Shown here: in pieces, positions 17,656 through 54,600 of the stretch
Layout of the letters: the number at the start of each line of letters is the position of its first letter
How positions within the stretch are numbered: the first letter of the stretch is position 1
Assembly (NCBI GenBank): GCA_013285405.1
Contig: CP053446.1
Coordinates: forward strand, 2,403,001-2,467,000
DNA length: 64,000 nucleotides
Source: Ignavibacteriota bacterium
GTDB taxonomy: Bacteria; Bacteroidota; Ignavibacteria; Ignavibacteriales; Ignavibacteriaceae
Direction: 5' to 3'
The notes under the pieces: model-generated
Told to the model about the DNA's origin: nothing
The model's input: the letters and a program-made list of their open reading frames with translations, nothing else
Databases searched by the model: none
Translations under genes and position numbers: made by a program

Positions 17656-17668
17656 GCCCCATCCCCAA

Positions 17669-17696
17669 CCCTTCCCCCAAGGGGAAGGGAGTTTTA
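17669..17696. terminator. Palindromic repeat acting as probable terminator between convergent genes
   Basis: CCCTTCCCC and GGGGAAGGG form a 9-bp stem followed by AGTTTTAATTT. The surrounding sequence resembles the dispersed CCTCCCCAAACCCCTCC palindrome found inside the genes at 29873 and 34003. A second palindromic element (GTCATTCC ... GGAATC, 17733-17775) follows. Confidence 0.6.
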
Positions 17697-29688: not shown

Positions 29689-29709
29689 GAATGTATAATT
29701 CATAATGAA

Positions 29710-29870
29710 TAATTAACAATTAAAAATTAACAATTAAGAATTAACAATGAAAAATTAAAAATGAAGAAGAAGGTTCTGATTCATAGCTCCGTAGGAGCGA
29801 CATATTTATAGAAACAGAAAAAACAAAAAAAATCAAGTCCCGTCAGGGACGACATAGATGCAGAGGTAAG
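29710..29870 (+). repeat. Spacer with short palindromes, duplicated at 33840-34000
   Basis: Contains repeated AATTAACAATTAAAAATTAACAATT sequence and two palindromic boxes (CTCCGTAGGAG and GTCCCGTCAGGGAC). The copy 4,130 bp downstream is nearly identical, more conserved than parts of the flanking genes. Confidence 0.8.
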
Positions 29871-29872
29871 AA

Positions 29873-30541
29873 ATGAAAATAAAAATTTTAATTATAGTAT
29901 TGGCAATAGCACATTTTTCATATTCACAAACCGTTTATGAAATTACACCCGGAACAAAAGGCAACGAAATAACATTGACGGTTGCAAATGTTTCAGAAAC
30001 AAATCCCGCAGAAAATGTTAAAGTAATGCCTCCCCAACCCCTCCAAATGAGGGGCTTTCAGGAAGAGCAAATTACATTTCACCAATCAGAACAAACGATT
30101 GAGAGGATAGAACCAGCAGCAGAAGCGGAAGTAACATTTACATTTGATATAAGCAGAAATGTTTCAATTACAAAGAAAGATACAATTGATTTTATGATAA
30201 CAGATGCAAACGGACTGATGATGACAAAGACATTCATCTTCAGTTACATTGGTCCGAAAGAATTCAAGCTTGAGCAGAATTATCCGAATCCATTTAATCC
30301 AGCAACAACGATACAGTATCAAATACCGGCCTCCCCAAACCCCTCCAAAGGAGGGGCTTTTGTATCATTAAAAATTTACGATATACTTGGCAGTGAAGTC
30401 GTAACATTAGTAAATGCAGAACAGCAGCCAGGATATTACGAAGTTCAGTTCAACGGAAGTAATCTTGCAAGTGGAATGTATGTTTATAGATTGCAGGCAG
30501 GAGAATACATTTCTACAAAGAAGATGTTGATGATTAAATGA
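29873..30541 (+). CDS. Small secreted protein with T9SS C-terminal sorting domain
   Basis: 222 residues: signal peptide (ending HFSYSQ), a beta-rich domain (about 20-130), and a type IX secretion sorting domain beginning [17 protein letters not shown] and ending KKMLMIK. The sorting domain is interrupted by about eight extra residues (PNPSKGGA) encoded by a palindromic DNA repeat (30330-30361). A second copy of that repeat at 30029-30058 encodes PPQPLQMRGF. Its paralogue at 34003 carries the same two insertions. It is the last gene of the duplicated block. Confidence 0.82.
   Translation: MKIKILIIVLAIAHFSYSQTVYEITPGTKGNEITLTVANVSETNPAENVKVMPPQPLQMRGFQEEQITFHQSEQTIERIEPAAEAEVTFTFDISRNVSITKKDTIDFMITDANGLMMTKTFIFSYIGPKEFKLEQNYPNPFNPATTIQYQIPASPNPSKGGAFVSLKIYDILGSEVVTLVNAEQQPGYYEVQFNGSNLASGMYVYRLQAGEYISTKKMLMIK
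30029..30058. repeat. Palindromic repeat inserted in a coding region
   Basis: CCTCCCCAACCCCTCC and GAGGGGCTTT arms lie in frame inside the gene at 29873. The same family recurs at 30330, 34159 and 34460, and in a related form at 17669. Confidence 0.75.
30330..30361. repeat. Palindromic repeat inserted in a T9SS sorting domain
   Basis: Arms CCCCTCC and GGAGGGG enclose AAA. The gene at 41695 reads directly [15 protein letters not shown] at this position, so the repeat adds about eight codons. Confidence 0.8.
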
Positions 30542-30640
30542 TTCGATCAATTCATCTGCCTTACTGCAGACAGGTCAGAAATCCCGACCTTGTCGGGGAT
30601 GGTGTTGAAATAAACGAATAGAAAAAAAGATTAAATTAAT

Positions 30641-30669
30641 CCCGCAAGAAAACAGCGGGGTTTTTTATT
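30641..30669 (+). terminator. Probable rho-independent terminator
   Basis: CCCGC and GCGGG pair across a nine-base loop and are followed by a run of T residues. It closes the first copy of the duplicated block. Confidence 0.7.
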
Positions 30670-30679
30670 TTAGTTAATA

Positions 30680-31918
30680 ATGATTAAAAAAAAATTTGAC
30701 GGAACACTCGAAGATTTTTCCCAATGGGATAGTTTTGAGATCGGAATGATAGAAGGATGCGATGCAGGATTGATTCTTAATAACGGAGCAATGGAAAATT
30801 ATTTTGCAGAAGTATATCAGCCGATATATTTTGTTGCAGCGAATGATTTAACGGAGACGGATACAGTAAAGGTAAGAGTAGGATTGATAGAAGGAGGAGG
30901 AAGCAGCAGACCTGTGAATAAAGGTGGAGAAGAAAAAGAAGCTATTATAACTAATCCAAATAAAAACAAAAAAGAACCTGAGCCGCTACCAATGAATCCA
31001 AGTACTTACTGTTTTCCAGAAAATTTCTGGACACCACACGATCTGGAGGGTGTTAGCAAGGTGGTGGTGGGGGATGGGTGTGAAGATTACATTTGCAACG
31101 AAGTAATTTTAAGACCATCATTCCGTTTTGAACATTTTCCAAATGGATCTTTTAATAATGATGCGTGTACAATTGAACAAAATAATGCATCTCAAGGACA
31201 AGTAGTATCCGGTGTTTTCTCCGTAATGTGGTCAGAACTTAACGATCTAAATTATTTCAATATTAATAATATTAATGCTTGTTATGTTCATAATTTTAAT
31301 ATTTGGAGATTTGGACACAAACTCCCATTATTTCCTTATTTCAAAACAATAATGGATGTCTGTATTACAAACGTTACTAATGCTGGACAAAAGCCATTAA
31401 ACCACATAAGCGAAATAACCACCGTTTATAATGACACTAAACTTTGTGATGCGAAAAAAGATTTAGAAGGACACAAATCATACCCATCAAAAGTACGAGC
31501 TGGAGGATATATTTTTCTTGAAGTTGAAATGGCACACGAAAATGCACACGGGCAGGATTTTCAGTGGGTCATAGATAGTTTGCAAAATGCTTTCCTTTAT
31601 CCAACATTAGATTTGTTGGAAGTAACCTGTGGAAGTTATGATCAAGAAAATAAAAAAGCTAATAATCAGGAAAAGGCTAAACTAATTTATTTTAACTATT
31701 TACAGAAAATTGTCGCTGGAGAAACGGTTGGTGCCGTACGCACATATAATGGATTTGAGCAGAGATTAAAAATAGGATATGAAAACCATATAAATCAGAG
31801 TTTTATTATTAATGGACAAAAAGTCGATCACGAAAATTACATTAACGGTTTTCCGATAGTTACAAATAGAATCGATGTATTATTGAATGAGTTTGAAAAC
31901 ATTTGGGATTGTAATTAA
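30680..31918 (+). pseudogene. N-terminally truncated paralogue of the HEXXH secreted protein
   Basis: 412 codons similar to about residues 290-691 of the protein at 25670: DGTLEDFSQWDSFEIGMIEGCDAG here corresponds to DGTIEDFPEWQGFEIAKVEGCALG there. The HEXXH motif is HENAH. It begins 11 bp after a terminator, lacks a visible ribosome site, and has no signal peptide, so it is probably not secreted. It may be a 5'-deleted remnant created by the tandem duplication. The remaining frame is intact, so recent loss or retained function is possible. Confidence 0.6.
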
Positions 31919-31934
31919 ATAAAAGGAAATTAAA

Positions 31935-33818
31935 ATGAAGATAACTATAATTTTATTGTTAACTATAATATTTAGTTTTCCACTATGTGCTCAGGAATTA
32001 ACGCAGCAAGAAAAGCAACGAATTATTGATAGTCTCGATAGTAATAATAATAGAGAAAATTACAATGCATTATTGAATGTCGAAAAATATAATATCGTTG
32101 AAGCGATCCCGAAATTAGAATCTAAAGCCCAAAACGGAGATTGCACTGCAATTTATTTAAGACTCTTACAAAAACTGGGTTCATATAATGTTCAGAGTCT
32201 AGCTCATATAGCTATTGATTCATCAAACAAATGTTATGACCCTGTTGAAACAAGATATGATTGTTCAAAAATATTAATTGAATTGGGAGATTACTCTGCT
32301 GCTGAATATATTATTGATTATTACAACAATAAAGCATCAAAATATTTCTTTGATATTACTTTAATTCCCAAGATCATTGATAATAGACCTGATCTGTTAC
32401 AACAATCAAAAACTGTTGTGTTTGATTATGCACAAAATTTCAGAGGCTCATCTTTTACAAGATATATAGCAAATGCAATAATAGCAGATAAATATCCTAA
32501 TGATGCTGTACCTGTTCTTGTTAATTCATTCAGGAACGAGCCGGACGATGCTTCAAGAATTTTATCACTTTGGTTATTATTTGTAATTGACTATTCTGAA
32601 CTTCCGGAGCTTATGAGAGAAAGGCTGGTTCAAGAACCTGTTCCTTCATATCGTTATATAATAGCTGATTCTTTATTAAAAGAATTTGGAACTCTACAAA
32701 ACTATCGGTTCGTAAAAGAATATGCAGTAAATGAATCTGATGAGGTAACCAGATCTCTGATAGAAAATGAAGTTGAAATATTTGTTCCAGTTCCACCAGA
32801 TTCTACAAAACTCACACTTGATTTATTAGATAACTTAATTAATTATGTAGATAGTGTTTTAACTTACACCTGGCTCGGCGATCTAACATTTTCAAACGAA
32901 CTTAAAAACATTTTAACCACTGCTAAAACAAACTTACAAAATGGCGATTCACTAACTTGCAGAGTTCAGGTAAAAACATTTCAGGATTTAGTAGATAATG
33001 TTTATAAAGATTCACTCAACTCAGATCCACGTTTTGTAACGATAGAAGGCTGGAAATTTCTTTACTGGAATGCTCAATACATTCTCGACAGACTTCCAGA
33101 GCCGCAAGCAAACCCAAACCTACTCGTAAACTTAAAGAACAGTTTGGGCAACCAAATAGAAGCAAGCAATGTAATGTATTATGAGTCCGCCACAAGCGGA
33201 TGGAAAGATGCAGTAAACAACGGAGACGGAACGTTTACAGTGATAACAACAAAACCAACAGTAAGCGTAAGAATGTTCTATGAATATGCAAATCAAACTG
33301 TTCATAATGTTACTGCACAAAACAATACTTACACTTTTATAACAGTAAACGCAGCGGTAGAGTTAAGAAACAGTTCAGGAAATTTAATGCCTGCCCCTTC
33401 GGGGGATCAGGGTACAGTTCAATACTATGCTGATGCTTGGAGAACATTTGGAACAACATCAAACGGAGTTGCATACAAAGAACTACTTCCAATCAATTAC
33501 AGTTTTAGAATGACTTACGAATATGTACCAAACGACAAACAGCAGGACATAAGCGTAAACAGCACAGTAACATTCGCAACAGTACTGTGTACATTAAAAG
33601 TAACCAATTTTAACAATCAGCCGCTTGCAGGTGCAAGTACAAAATATTACTCAACAGCTTGGCGAGATATCGGACTTACAAATTCAGAAGGAATAATAAC
33701 AAAAGAGCTTTTACCAAAGAACTTAAGCTTCAGAGCTACGTATGGTAATGTTAGTCTTGATAAACAGCAGGATATTTCTGTAAATATACTTGTAGAGATT
33801 CAGTTAAACGTTCCGTAG
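31935..33818 (+). CDS. Secreted helical-repeat protein with three C-terminal beta repeats (second copy)
   Basis: 627 residues with signal peptide (ending FPLCAQ). It is a paralogue of 27763-29688. The helical N-terminal part (about 20-375) is strongly diverged, but the C-terminal part after LDRLPEPQANPNLLVNLKNS is almost the same, with the three YY...AW...KELLP...SFR repeats. An AAAAGGAAA ribosome site precedes the ATG. The contrast between the two halves suggests gene conversion of the 3' part or selection for change in the helical part. Function unknown. Confidence 0.75.
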   Translation: MKITIILLLTIIFSFPLCAQELTQQEKQRIIDSLDSNNNRENYNALLNVEKYNIVEAIPKLESKAQNGDCTAIYLRLLQKLGSYNVQSLAHIAIDSSNKCYDPVETRYDCSKILIELGDYSAAEYIIDYYNNKASKYFFDITLIPKIIDNRPDLLQQSKTVVFDYAQNFRGSSFTRYIANAIIADKYPNDAVPVLVNSFRNEPDDASRILSLWLLFVIDYSELPELMRERLVQEPVPSYRYIIADSLLKEFGTLQNYRFVKEYAVNESDEVTRSLIENEVEIFVPVPPDSTKLTLDLLDNLINYVDSVLTYTWLGDLTFSNELKNILTTAKTNLQNGDSLTCRVQVKTFQDLVDNVYKDSLNSDPRFVTIEGWKFLYWNAQYILDRLPEPQANPNLLVNLKNSLGNQIEASNVMYYESATSGWKDAVNNGDGTFTVITTKPTVSVRMFYEYANQTVHNVTAQNNTYTFITVNAAVELRNSSGNLMPAPSGDQGTVQYYADAWRTFGTTSNGVAYKELLPINYSFRMTYEYVPNDKQQDISVNSTVTFATVLCTLKVTNFNNQPLAGASTKYYSTAWRDIGLTNSEGIITKELLPKNLSFRATYGNVSLDKQQDISVNILVEIQLNVP

Positions 33819-34002
33819 GAATGTATAATTCATAATGAATAATTAACAATTAAAAATTAACAATTAAGAATTTACAATGAAAAATTAAAAATGAAGATGA
33901 AGGTTCTGATTCATAGCTCCGTAGGAGCGACATATTTATAGAAACAGAAAAAACAAAAAAAATCAAGTCCCGTCAGGGACGACATAGATGCAGAGGTAAG
34001 AA

Positions 34003-34671
34003 ATGAAAATAAAAATTTTAATTATAGTATTGGCAATAACACATTATTCATTTTCACAAACCGTTTACGAAGTAACACCCGGAACAAAGGGAAATGAGTT
34101 AACACTAACGGTTGCAAATATTTCAGAAACAAATCCTGCAGAAAATGTTAAAGTAATGCCTCCTCAACTCCTACAAAGGAGGGGCTTTCAGGAAGAGCGA
34201 ATTACATTTCACCAATCAGAACAAACGATTGAGAGGATAGAACCAATAGCAGAAGCGGAAGTAACATTCACATTTGATATAAGCAGAAATGTTTCAATTA
34301 CAAAGAAAGATACAATTGATTTTATGATAACGGATGCAAACGGACTGATGATGACAAAGACATTCATCTTCAGTTACATTGGTCCGAAAGAATTCAAGCT
34401 TGAACAGAATTTCCCTAATCCGTTTAATCCAACAACAACGATACAGTATCAAATACCGGCCTCCCCAAACCCCTCCAAAGGAGGGGCTTTTGTATCATTA
34501 AAAATTTACGATATACTTGGCAGTGAAGTCGTAACATTAGTAAATGAAGAACAACAGCCTGGATATTATGAAGTTGAATTTAATGCTTCTCATTTAGCAA
34601 GTGGAATGTATGTGTACAGATTGCAAGCAGGAGAATACATTTCTACAAAGAAGATGTTGATGATTAAATGA
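34003..34671 (+). CDS. Small secreted protein with T9SS sorting domain (second copy)
   Basis: 222 residues, about 90 percent identical by eye to 29873-30541, with the same signal peptide and sorting domain (EQNFPNPFNPTTTI ... KKMLMIK). Both palindromic insertions are kept in the same positions (34159-34188 and 34460-34491), so they predate the duplication. It is the last gene of the second block. Confidence 0.82.
   Translation: MKIKILIIVLAITHYSFSQTVYEVTPGTKGNELTLTVANISETNPAENVKVMPPQLLQRRGFQEERITFHQSEQTIERIEPIAEAEVTFTFDISRNVSITKKDTIDFMITDANGLMMTKTFIFSYIGPKEFKLEQNFPNPFNPTTTIQYQIPASPNPSKGGAFVSLKIYDILGSEVVTLVNEEQQPGYYEVEFNASHLASGMYVYRLQAGEYISTKKMLMIK
34159..34188. repeat. Palindromic repeat inserted in a coding region (copy 2)
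   Basis: Same position as 30029-30058 in the paralogous gene, with a few substitutions in the left arm (TCCTCAACTCCTACAAAGG). Confidence 0.7.
34460..34491. repeat. Palindromic repeat inserted in a T9SS sorting domain (copy 2)
   Basis: Identical to 30330-30361; arms CCCCTCC and GGAGGGG. Confidence 0.8.
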
Positions 34672-34689: not shown

Positions 34690-34865
34690 CTTACGACAGA
34701 CAGGTCAGAAATCCCGACCTTGTCGGGGATGGTGTACGAGTCTCTTTTTGTCAACCTGAACTCGTTTCTCCGAAGGAGTCCTTTGGACAGGTTCTTCTTA
34801 TTCACCAAAACCGCGATTAAAGATTCCGAAACAAGTTCGGAATGACAGTCGTGCAACGCCCTGGG
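34690..34865. repeat. Cluster of dispersed palindromic repeats
   Basis: Contains ATCCCGAC/GTCGGGGAT, a CTCCGAAGGAG element, and a GATTCCGAA ... TTCGGAATGAC element. The last two types recur at 41233-41285 and 17733-17775. No gene is visible in this stretch. Confidence 0.65.
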
Positions 34866-41096: not shown

Positions 41097-41352
41097 GGCA
41101 GGTCTCCTGGCTTATTCAATTAACAATGAATAACGAACAATTAAAAATTAGGAAATTGTTCATTGTAAATTTTTAATTGTTAATTGCTCTCACAGTTGCG
41201 CGACAGCGCCGGAGTTGATAATTCTATGTTGTCATTCCGAACTTGGTTCGGAATCTGGATCCTGAAACAAGTTCAGGATGACTATGATGAATTAATCGCA
41301 CCGGACTTCCCTATAATTTCCCTTGCCCCGACAAGTCGGGGTGGGAACACCG
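41097..41352 (-). promoter_or_regulatory. Cobalamin riboswitch
   Basis: On the minus strand, in order: GGTGTTCCCAC (41350-41340), AAGGGAA, GGGAAGTCCGGTGCG (41311-41297), CGCAACTGTGA (about 41200-41190) and the closing GCCAGGAGACCTGCC (41111-41097). These are the conserved boxes of the B12 aptamer. It lies 170 bp upstream of the BtuB-like gene. Three peripheral positions hold long palindromes (a CCCCGAC/GTCGGGG stem, two nested hairpins at 41212-41296, and an AT-rich hairpin at 41112-41180). Confidence 0.93.
41233..41285. repeat. Dispersed palindromes inside the riboswitch
   Basis: GTCATTCCGAAC ... GTTCGGAATC is followed by ATCCTGAAAC ... GTTCAGGATGAC. Related elements lie at 17733-17775 and 34820-34850. 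Confidence 0.7.
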
Positions 41353-51611: not shown

Positions 51612-54600
51612 CTATTTCATCATAATCATTTTTTTCGTCTCAATAAAACTTTGTCCTGAGCCTGTCGAAGGATTATCTGCAGTTAATTGATAAAAATATA
51701 CACCGCTTGAAAAACAGCTTCCATCAAATTTCAGATTGTAAATACCGGCTTGTTTGAATTCATTCACAAGAACTGCTATTTCAGTTCCCAATGCATCATA
51801 GATTTTTAATGAAATCTGACCAGCTTCAGGAATTGAGTAAGTAATCAAAGTAACAGGATTGAACGGATTCGGATAATTTTGTTCGAGGTTAAAACTTAAT
51901 GGAATTTCATTTTGCTCATCTACAGAGACTGCACCAATACTAAATTCTCCAATTGCTATATTACTTCCCGCATAAGCTGCATCAACTGCTCGAAGCTGCC
52001 ATTGATAATCTCCATTTTGTAATCCAGTCAATGACCATTCAACAACCGCACTGATATTTCCCGGCTCAGGCAAACGCGTAAGTACAATATTCGAAGGACT
52101 ATTTTCATTTCCAATTGGGACGTGTGTTCCATTTCGTATGATAACAAGATCATAAGTTATAGCTTGTGAGGGTGTATGGTCATCTGTTGCAGGCAGCCAC
52201 GATAAGAGAATTGAATTCTCAGAAAGAAGTGTACCTTCCAACCCTGTTGGTATTGTTGGAGCTTCATTTAATTCTAAAACATCATTGCGATAGACATGCA
52301 TTTGAGCTTCAACTAATCCATTTCCACCCGGTACGAAATATTGACCGGCAATGAAATAATCAAGATCAGCATCACCATCTAAATCAAACCATGAAAAAGT
52401 TCCACCACGATCACCGGCTGCTCTCGGTGCCGGAAGAGTATTAGCAGTATCAGCAATGAAAGTTCCACCATCATTAGTATAAATCCGTGCGCGACCTTCG
52501 ATTTGTGAACCAGAATTGTAATTGCCAGCTAATAAAATATCCATATCACCATCAGAATTATAATCAGCCCATGTTGCTGCAGTAATATCAAACCATCCTT
52601 CACAAGGTATGCAGTTTATAACTTCAAAGGGGATAAATGTTTCCGCTTCGTTTTTATAAATGCGAAGTGCCATGGCGGTATATGTGCTATCAATTTCTTT
52701 CAAGTTTCCAGCAACGAGTAAATCCAGATCACCATCACCATCATAATCTCCCCACTGAGATTCACCGTGTTCAATGCTTAAAGATCCGAGTATATTTTCG
52801 ACTGTGAAATTTCCGCCGCCGTCATTCCTGTACCGCTTAATGAATCCATCATCAGTTAACGGAGCAACATTTACTAAAAGTAAATCGAGATCCTGATCAC
52901 CATCGAAGTCAGCCCACGAACTCTGTGCATGGCTAGTTGGAGAAAATAAAGAATCAATTGCAGTAAAAAACCACCCGCCTCCGGTATTTGGTCCATCATT
53001 TCTCATAAGCACAGTCTTATAAGAAAAAGTTGAATTATCGAAAACTGATGGGATTAGAAGATCGGCATCACCATCATTATCATAATCTGCCCAGGTTATG
53101 GAACGAAGATCAAAATCTGCCTGACTGTTCTCTTCCCAATACCCGGGAAGGTTAATATCAGTTAACACGAGTGTTCCTTCATCATTACGATAGATGGATG
53201 TGCTGCCATCTGTTCCTACAACGAGATCAAGATCTGTATCACCATCAAAATCTCCCCATGCAAGATCAGATGCACCGGTTGTGAGTGAGCCGAGTGGAAT
53301 GTTGATATATGAAAAATCCCATCTTGTGGAATCTGCCTGACCATTATTTTGAATAAGGATTAATCTGTCTTCAACACTCACGAAGTATTCTACAAAATAA
53401 CCTAATACTGCAATATCAAGGTCACCATCATTATCGTAATCTGCAGGTGCAGTTGTTATTACCCAGAAATCTTCATCCTGTGATGTGACGAAGATTGAAT
53501 CCGGAGGTGTAACCTCAGTGAAATCACCAAAAGTACCGCCAGGCCCGGGTTGCACAACAACGAGTTTCCCGATAGTTCCAGTATCTCCATCATCATCGGT
53601 GACTGTCAAAGTAACGATATAAGTATTGGCTATATTAAAAGTATGCGTTGGATTTTGCTGAGTTGAACTTGTTCCATCACCAAAATTCCATTCCCAACTT
53701 ACAATGAATCCATCCGGGTCCGTACTAGTGTCAGTAAAATCAACTGTCAATCCATTTGTATTAAATTCAAAAGATGCTACTGGTGGTTGATTTACTGGTG
53801 GTGGTGGAGGACCTGTAAAATGTTCAATGTATCCTTGAGCACCAACTATCCATGCATCACCTCCGGGAACTGCAGTGATAGAACTGAAGATTCCAAAACC
53901 GTCTGAATCAATTTGTATAACAGACCAGCTCTGTCCTCCTGTCGCAGAATAATAAGCTACATTATTATTTGTGCTTATCCAGAGTTCATTTGCATTGAGT
54001 AAATGAATATCAGTAAAGTTATCGTTGGTGGATGGTGTGGGTAAAATTTCCCATGTTATTCCACCATCATTACTGCGAAAAGCCTGACCCCACCATCCAA
54101 CCGCATAACCAATACTTTCATTTAAAAATTCCATATCCTCAATTTGAACCTGTGTAGAAGGAAGTTCAGCCTGAATCCATGTAGCACCATTATCAGTACT
54201 TCTGTAATAAATTTCACCGACGTTAGCAGCCCAAATATTTGAACCTTCTACATCAACAGATTTATAAGCGCCTAAAAAATCAGTAACCGGAATCCAGGTT
54301 GTTCCTCCATCAGTAGTATGATACAAAGCTCCGGTGTTAAAACTCACACCAATTACCCAACCATCAAGTAATGAGGTAAAATGAATATCTTCTGCTGAGG
54401 ACATACTTGAAGGTTTATTAACGGTCGCTGTCCAATTCGTTCCTCCATCAGTGCTCATAAATACCTGACCTGTTTCATCAACAAGTACGGCTTCATTTGT
54501 TCCAACAGCCTGAACTGCTTTAAGATTATTTTGTGAAAATCTTTCATGTATTATCCAAGGTGTAAATCCATCACTCGAAAGAAGTGTCCCATTATCACCA

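Follow-up and report, generated by a model that had tools for sequence, protein, structure and literature searches.

Three-armed palindromic repeats in frame inside genes of an Ignavibacteriota bacterium and their association with DUF559 nuclease genes

Palindromic repeats in and between genes

How does the same palindromic DNA come to stand both between genes and, in frame, inside them? This question is raised by the 64,000-nucleotide stretch of an Ignavibacteriota genome analysed here (contig CP053446.1; the window), in which the original prediction had placed a palindromic element twice in each of two T9SS genes. All of these positions were confirmed to within a few bases. The two genes (29873-30541 and 34003-34671, plus strand) each encode 222 aa, are parts of a 4130-bp tandem duplication and carry a Por_Secre_tail sorting domain (PF18962, aa 137-218 of the first gene). 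The first gene harbours an intact element at 30330-30356 (plus strand), with arms at 30330-30336, 30340-30346 and 30350-30356 separated by AAA loops, which lies in frame in the sorting domain and is translated as PNPSKGGA. Its counterpart in the duplicated gene (34460-34486, plus strand) is identical in sequence. A slightly decayed three-arm element is found in frame in the N-terminal domain (30029-30054, plus strand; MPPQPLQMRGF) and a more decayed copy at the matching site of the duplicate (34159-34184, plus strand; MPPQLLQRRGF). All four genic copies of the window are in frame and lie within these two ORFs. The related copy expected outside genes near 17669 was located at 17657-17689 (plus strand), where an intergenic element with 9-nt arms (CCCCATCCC / CCCTTCCCC / GGGGAAGGG) starts 2 nt past a stop codon. 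When searching the window with the 17-nt motif, we obtained two matches, compared to 0.02 expected from shuffled sequence.

In the sorting domain the insert amounts to a net gain of seven residues relative to the other sorting domains, close to the eight or so that had been proposed. In the AF2 model of the protein, the N-terminal half of which is poor, the insert 30330-30356 falls in a loop between strands 144-151 and 162-169, both confidently predicted. A different repeat, CCTTCGACAGGCTCAGG, was present in the site C loop of the sorting domain at 51615-51899 (51645-51677, minus strand; peptide DNPSTGSGQSF). The window contains other dispersed repeats as well, namely AATTAACAATTAAAAATT arrays and TGTCATTCCGAACTTGTTTCGGAATCT (29704-29770, 33834-33900, 34821-34847 and 41154-41256). 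In the orthologue of the window gene in the relative G023 (L148), the sorting-domain site holds a different perfect palindrome, GGTCTGAGCTTGCTCAGACC.

Three-arm architecture

The window element has the layout CCTCCCC-AAA-CCCCTCC-AAA-GGAGGGG (arms 1, 2 and 3 with AAA linkers). Arms 2 and 3 make up a hairpin, which was predicted computationally, and arm 1 mirrors arm 2. The repeat is palindromic as originally described, but its two-arm form has to be replaced by one of three arms, a mirror arm plus a hairpin. The complementary strand, CCCCTCC-TTT-GGAGGGG-TTT-GGGGAGG, has the layout of an antiparallel purine-motif intrastrand triplex. Among 37 distinct copies, the fit of the third arm to its own stem was 0.907, compared to 0.72 after permutation (maximum of 2000 permutations 0.78); permuting within equal stem length gave 0.904 versus 0.78 (maximum 0.838). 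The third base over G was C in 200 of 219 cases, and over A we counted T 44, A 26, C 10 and G 0 times (T or A, 70/80). The purine motif permits T over A, which corresponds to A in the C-rich strand. A Y-motif triplex was rejected, as the 26 cases of A over A make it fit more poorly than the purine motif. The covariation of the arms indicates that the elements are of the same class as the PIT/TM_ECO motifs of E. coli, purine-motif intrastrand DNA triplexes, and suggests that such triplexes may form in vivo. The elements also agree with the intrastrand triplexes of ITxF class II, having three arms, a third arm that follows the rule of this class (G over G-C, A or T over A-T), stems of 6-15 nt and loops of 1-6 nt. 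The consensus of TM_ECO proper, CCCTCNCCCN3-6GGGNGAGGGN3GGGNGAGGG with its 9-nt arms, is not matched by the genic copies of the window, whose arms are 7 nt long and of different sequence.

Genomic copies, hosts and insertion sites

A covariance model built from 14 copies, in which the pairing of the third arm is not scored, recovered 56 copies in the 3.86-Mb genome, or 57 with the degenerate one of the window. The count by coding and intergenic position that the original prediction had proposed gave 25 copies internal to genes and in frame, 2 at C-termini and 29 outside ORFs of at least 100 aa, with 1 left out of the classification. The in-frame hosts include 15 T9SS sorting domains, four N-domain sites of the 222-aa family, RlmB (an rRNA methylase), NuoL, a DNA methylase, a glycosyltransferase, an A2M-like protein and another secreted protein, and genic copies occur in several frames and on either strand. 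Sorting-domain copies have in many cases spread together with the domain, several of them also with its 3′ flank, so that independent insertion events are fewer than genic copies; we count at least nine. Some copies are decaying (34159 and 2762390). Among 41 relatives, whose genomes are partly draft assemblies, the copy number ranged from 0 to 35.

Comparison with uninterrupted paralogues and congeners, which had likewise been proposed, indicates that the elements are insertions, because homologues without the DNA are also without the residues. In the 222-aa family, the paralogue at 2133 kb contains the C-site insert and lacks the N-site insert; the paralogues at 2509 kb and 1573 kb contain the N-site insert and lack that of the sorting domain (C-site), each being 7 aa shorter. 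The RlmB insert is absent from four congeners (81-86% identical) and from nearly all other relatives. Only G023, which belongs to another genus, has one, a solo element cleanly inserted as 36 nt (12 aa) at a position of the loop 8 residues further on. Horizontal transfer of rlmB was rejected as the cause of this site common to the host genome (G000) and G023, since gene identities track relatedness and the inserts lie at different places of the loop. A CCTGCC..GGCAGG-type repeat has given RlmB (L097, C1:2635659-2636420) another insert, LPDRQAC, which congeners lack. The A2M-like protein has 11 aa that its congeners lack, and the NuoL insert is also absent in congeners, one of which (G005) holds a different palindrome in that loop. 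Most insertions replace a few loop residues. The same residues without the palindromic DNA were not found among the homologues compared, and the in-frame insertion originally suggested is supported.

Neither the preference for one loop shared by several repeat families nor the link to DUF559 described below had been foreseen. Of 101 sampled sorting domains of the host genome, 26 shared the position of a long loop, which follows the IP dipeptide. The inserts in these loops include triplex elements in two orientations and of several subfamilies, and also other repeats (GTCATTGCGAG..CGAAGCAA, GGTCAAGCCCGGAATGAC and CACCCTGAGC..GAAGGGTC). At the same site in named Ignavibacteria (80 loci), yet other repeats were found, GAGACGCAAAATCTTGCGTC, CGAGTCCCGATAGAATCGGGACG and more. 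A significant palindrome was present in 51% of 57 long loops compared to 5.8% of 137 normal loops (p 5e-12). One insert is nested inside another (VVALS[LPGRQTG]PVEGQHV), and two further sorting-domain loops are also invaded. The turn of the sorting domain serves as a landing pad, where several unrelated palindromic repeats have entered at the same codon in Ignavibacteria.

Association with DUF559 genes and possible origin

DUF559 proteins are Vsr-like PD-(D/E)XK nucleases (PF04480). In the host genome, a 129-aa DUF559 gene between nrfH and nrfA (PF04480, E 4e-29) is bracketed by two elements. Among 45 DUF559 loci of this genome and its relatives, an element was detected within 250 nt at 35 (14 on both sides, 21 on one side) and none at the other 10. 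The element density was 3.02/kb within 250 nt of DUF559, compared to 0.081/kb further out and 0.029/kb at control loci, which is about 100 times the control level, with an element read on both strands possibly counted twice, in the controls as well. No triplex element was found within 250 nt of 21 GIY-YIG genes or of 4 Y1_Tnp (IS200-type transposase) genes. Across 41 genomes, the element count correlated with DUF559 (rho 0.45, p 0.003) and showed no relation to Y1_Tnp (rho 0.17, p 0.28). DUF559 was still present in 16 of the 22 genomes without matches to the R1 model, which misses other subfamilies carried by some of these genomes. No DUF559 gene of the host genome has arms matching the subfamily of the window.

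At many DUF559 genes, each end carries a complete element, the two being opposite in orientation and often different in type. In seven genomes, one of which is a single contig (G023), an element-DUF559-element cassette lies in frame in the cobalamin-dependent methionine synthase MetH, in the interdomain linker between the cap and B12 domains. The MetH orthologues of 15 relatives are empty, with a linker of 32-34 aa. All seven cassettes retain an intact nuclease motif, DF.C....L.IE.DG..H, and the element arms differ among them yet stay three-way matched. Two more in-frame cassettes were found in HsdR, and one of these HsdR proteins also holds an in-frame GIY-YIG domain. As in mobile elements, inverted repeats bracket a gene and empty sites exist; a transposition event with precise cassette ends or target duplication was not found among the loci compared. 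A distance of 168 nt separates the end of ycjD, the DUF559 gene of E. coli MG1655, from TM_ECO no. 9, and a partial element borders the gene at its 3′ end. E. coli genomes matching only fabI were tried as empty ycjD sites; NZ_CP018250, followed to sapF, gives no precise end because an efflux operon occupies the place of ycjD.

Free-standing GIY-YIG genes (L242 in G021, and L317-L346) are flanked by other palindromes, TCCCGA..TCGGGA and CCCCGAAA..TTTCGGGG, often identical on both sides, and hairpins near GIY-YIG genes reached 1.81/kb compared to 0.10 in controls. GIY-YIG genes also form tandem arrays with a constant step of ~315 bp (five at G000:C1:2945594-2947066, three at 712542-713374). GIY-YIG nucleases and their palindromes may represent a parallel system.

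We consider it somewhat probable that a mobile element encoding DUF559 has the triplex repeats as its ends and the solo copies as its miniature, non-autonomous derivatives. The three-arm repeats would then delimit a small cassette encoding the DUF559 nuclease, and the window repeat would be a solo copy whose G-rich strand could fold as an intrastrand purine-motif triplex. The nuclease would cut at the folded repeat, or be recruited by it, and in acting on it would move or copy both cassettes and bare repeats. An element of three n-base arms and two 3-nt linkers would have a length of 3n+6, always a multiple of three, and no reading frame would have to include a stop, so that copies in tolerant surface loops would survive as added peptides, with the turns of the numerous T9SS sorting domains as main refuge. 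This length and the lack of stops may explain survival in genes, although net insert lengths vary and selection for frame suffices. DUF559 could also be a passenger or use existing repeats as targets, and it is possible that its cassettes home into elements already present.

A reading in which the elements are triplex motifs of the known kind, lack a mobiliser of their own and spread through replication stalling, template switching and recombination appears unlikely; DUF559 would then be attracted to the motifs as targets, as IS elements are to REPs. The spread of several sorting-domain copies with their domain and 3′ flank is consistent with this reading, as are the efflux operon that some E. 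coli strains have between fabI and sapF in place of ycjD/TM and the report linking TM_ECO to local instability rather than to mobile elements (PMC4666352). It is harder to reconcile with the complete, opposed elements at both DUF559 ends, often of two types, as in the MetH copies, because insertion into a single repeat would not readily yield them.

The host genome also encodes four Y1_Tnp genes, whose flanking palindromes show that REP/RAYT-type systems operate here, and the elements might be miniature transposons mobilised in trans by such IS200-like Y1 transposases. Each of these genes (L033-L036) has on both sides a palindrome that is distinct from those of the others (e.g. GTGAGACTCACC..GGTGAGTCTCAC). 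RAYT mobilisation was rejected as improbable, since these palindromes differ from the triplex element, which is missing from their vicinity, and copy number is unrelated to Y1_Tnp. That the peptides are native low-complexity sequence and the palindromic DNA an accident is hardly credible: the loop is naturally variable among sorting domains, but the same DNA occurs between genes and in unrelated genes in other frames and on the other strand, palindromes are concentrated in the long loops, and the intergenic copies and empty paralogues refute this reading.

The PIT/TM_ECO motifs (Hoyne and Maher, cited in Holder et al. 2015; PMC4666352) resemble the elements in their three-arm layout, triplets of the purine motif, short loops, copy numbers in the tens per genome, patchy distribution between close relatives and inverted pairs. 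In E. coli they were reported to be always intergenic, whereas 25 of the 57 copies here are internal and in frame; our elements also have shorter arms (7-9 nt), many subfamilies and a DUF559 link unreported for TM_ECO. Rickettsia palindromic elements and the intragenic GTAG/CGTC REPs (Di Nocera et al. 2013, PMC3733652) are likewise palindromic repeats in frame in functional proteins, including housekeeping ones, probably in tolerated loops. The likeness to Rickettsia elements that had been predicted holds for behaviour, and the sequence class is that of the triplex motifs (TM/PIT). The third arm, the different lineage and the strong preference for one T9SS loop distinguish our elements from both groups, and they have no RAYT link; a constant GTAG or CGTC hairpin-end tag was not found in the flanks of the genomic copies. 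VsrA of Caulobacter is a DUF559 protein (PMC12907096), and E. coli YcjD is in the same family, PF04480. This family is known only as a Vsr-like repair protein, whereas here it is triplex-flanked and in frame in MetH and HsdR. As with inteins and homing endonucleases, a nuclease domain lies in frame within a conserved enzyme. Unlike inteins, the DUF559 cassette occupies a linker between domains, where it seems to be kept, and no Hint/splicing domain was present among the Pfam hits of the DUF559 fusions.

In the part of the literature that we covered, neither triplex motifs nor palindromes are described in connection with DUF559, T9SS or Ignavibacteria, and on this basis the evidence points to an undescribed kind of mobile element. 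More tentatively, it could be a new bacterial class in which DUF559 is bracketed by triplex repeats and recognises folded DNA, the PIT/TM motifs of numerous bacteria, E. coli included, being its ends and miniatures. To our knowledge, bacterial triplex motifs have been known for about 25 years without a source or function; because their link to a single nuclease family is tight and specific, their origin can be tested in E. coli itself, on ycjD and TM_ECO. If the proposed origin is true, the frame-neutrality of the repeats would allow essential proteins to keep solo copies as well as entire nuclease cassettes. Short DNA repeats continually add peptides to real enzymes, and one secretion-signal loop receives several unrelated repeat families, so that protein insertion can be studied with many replicates.
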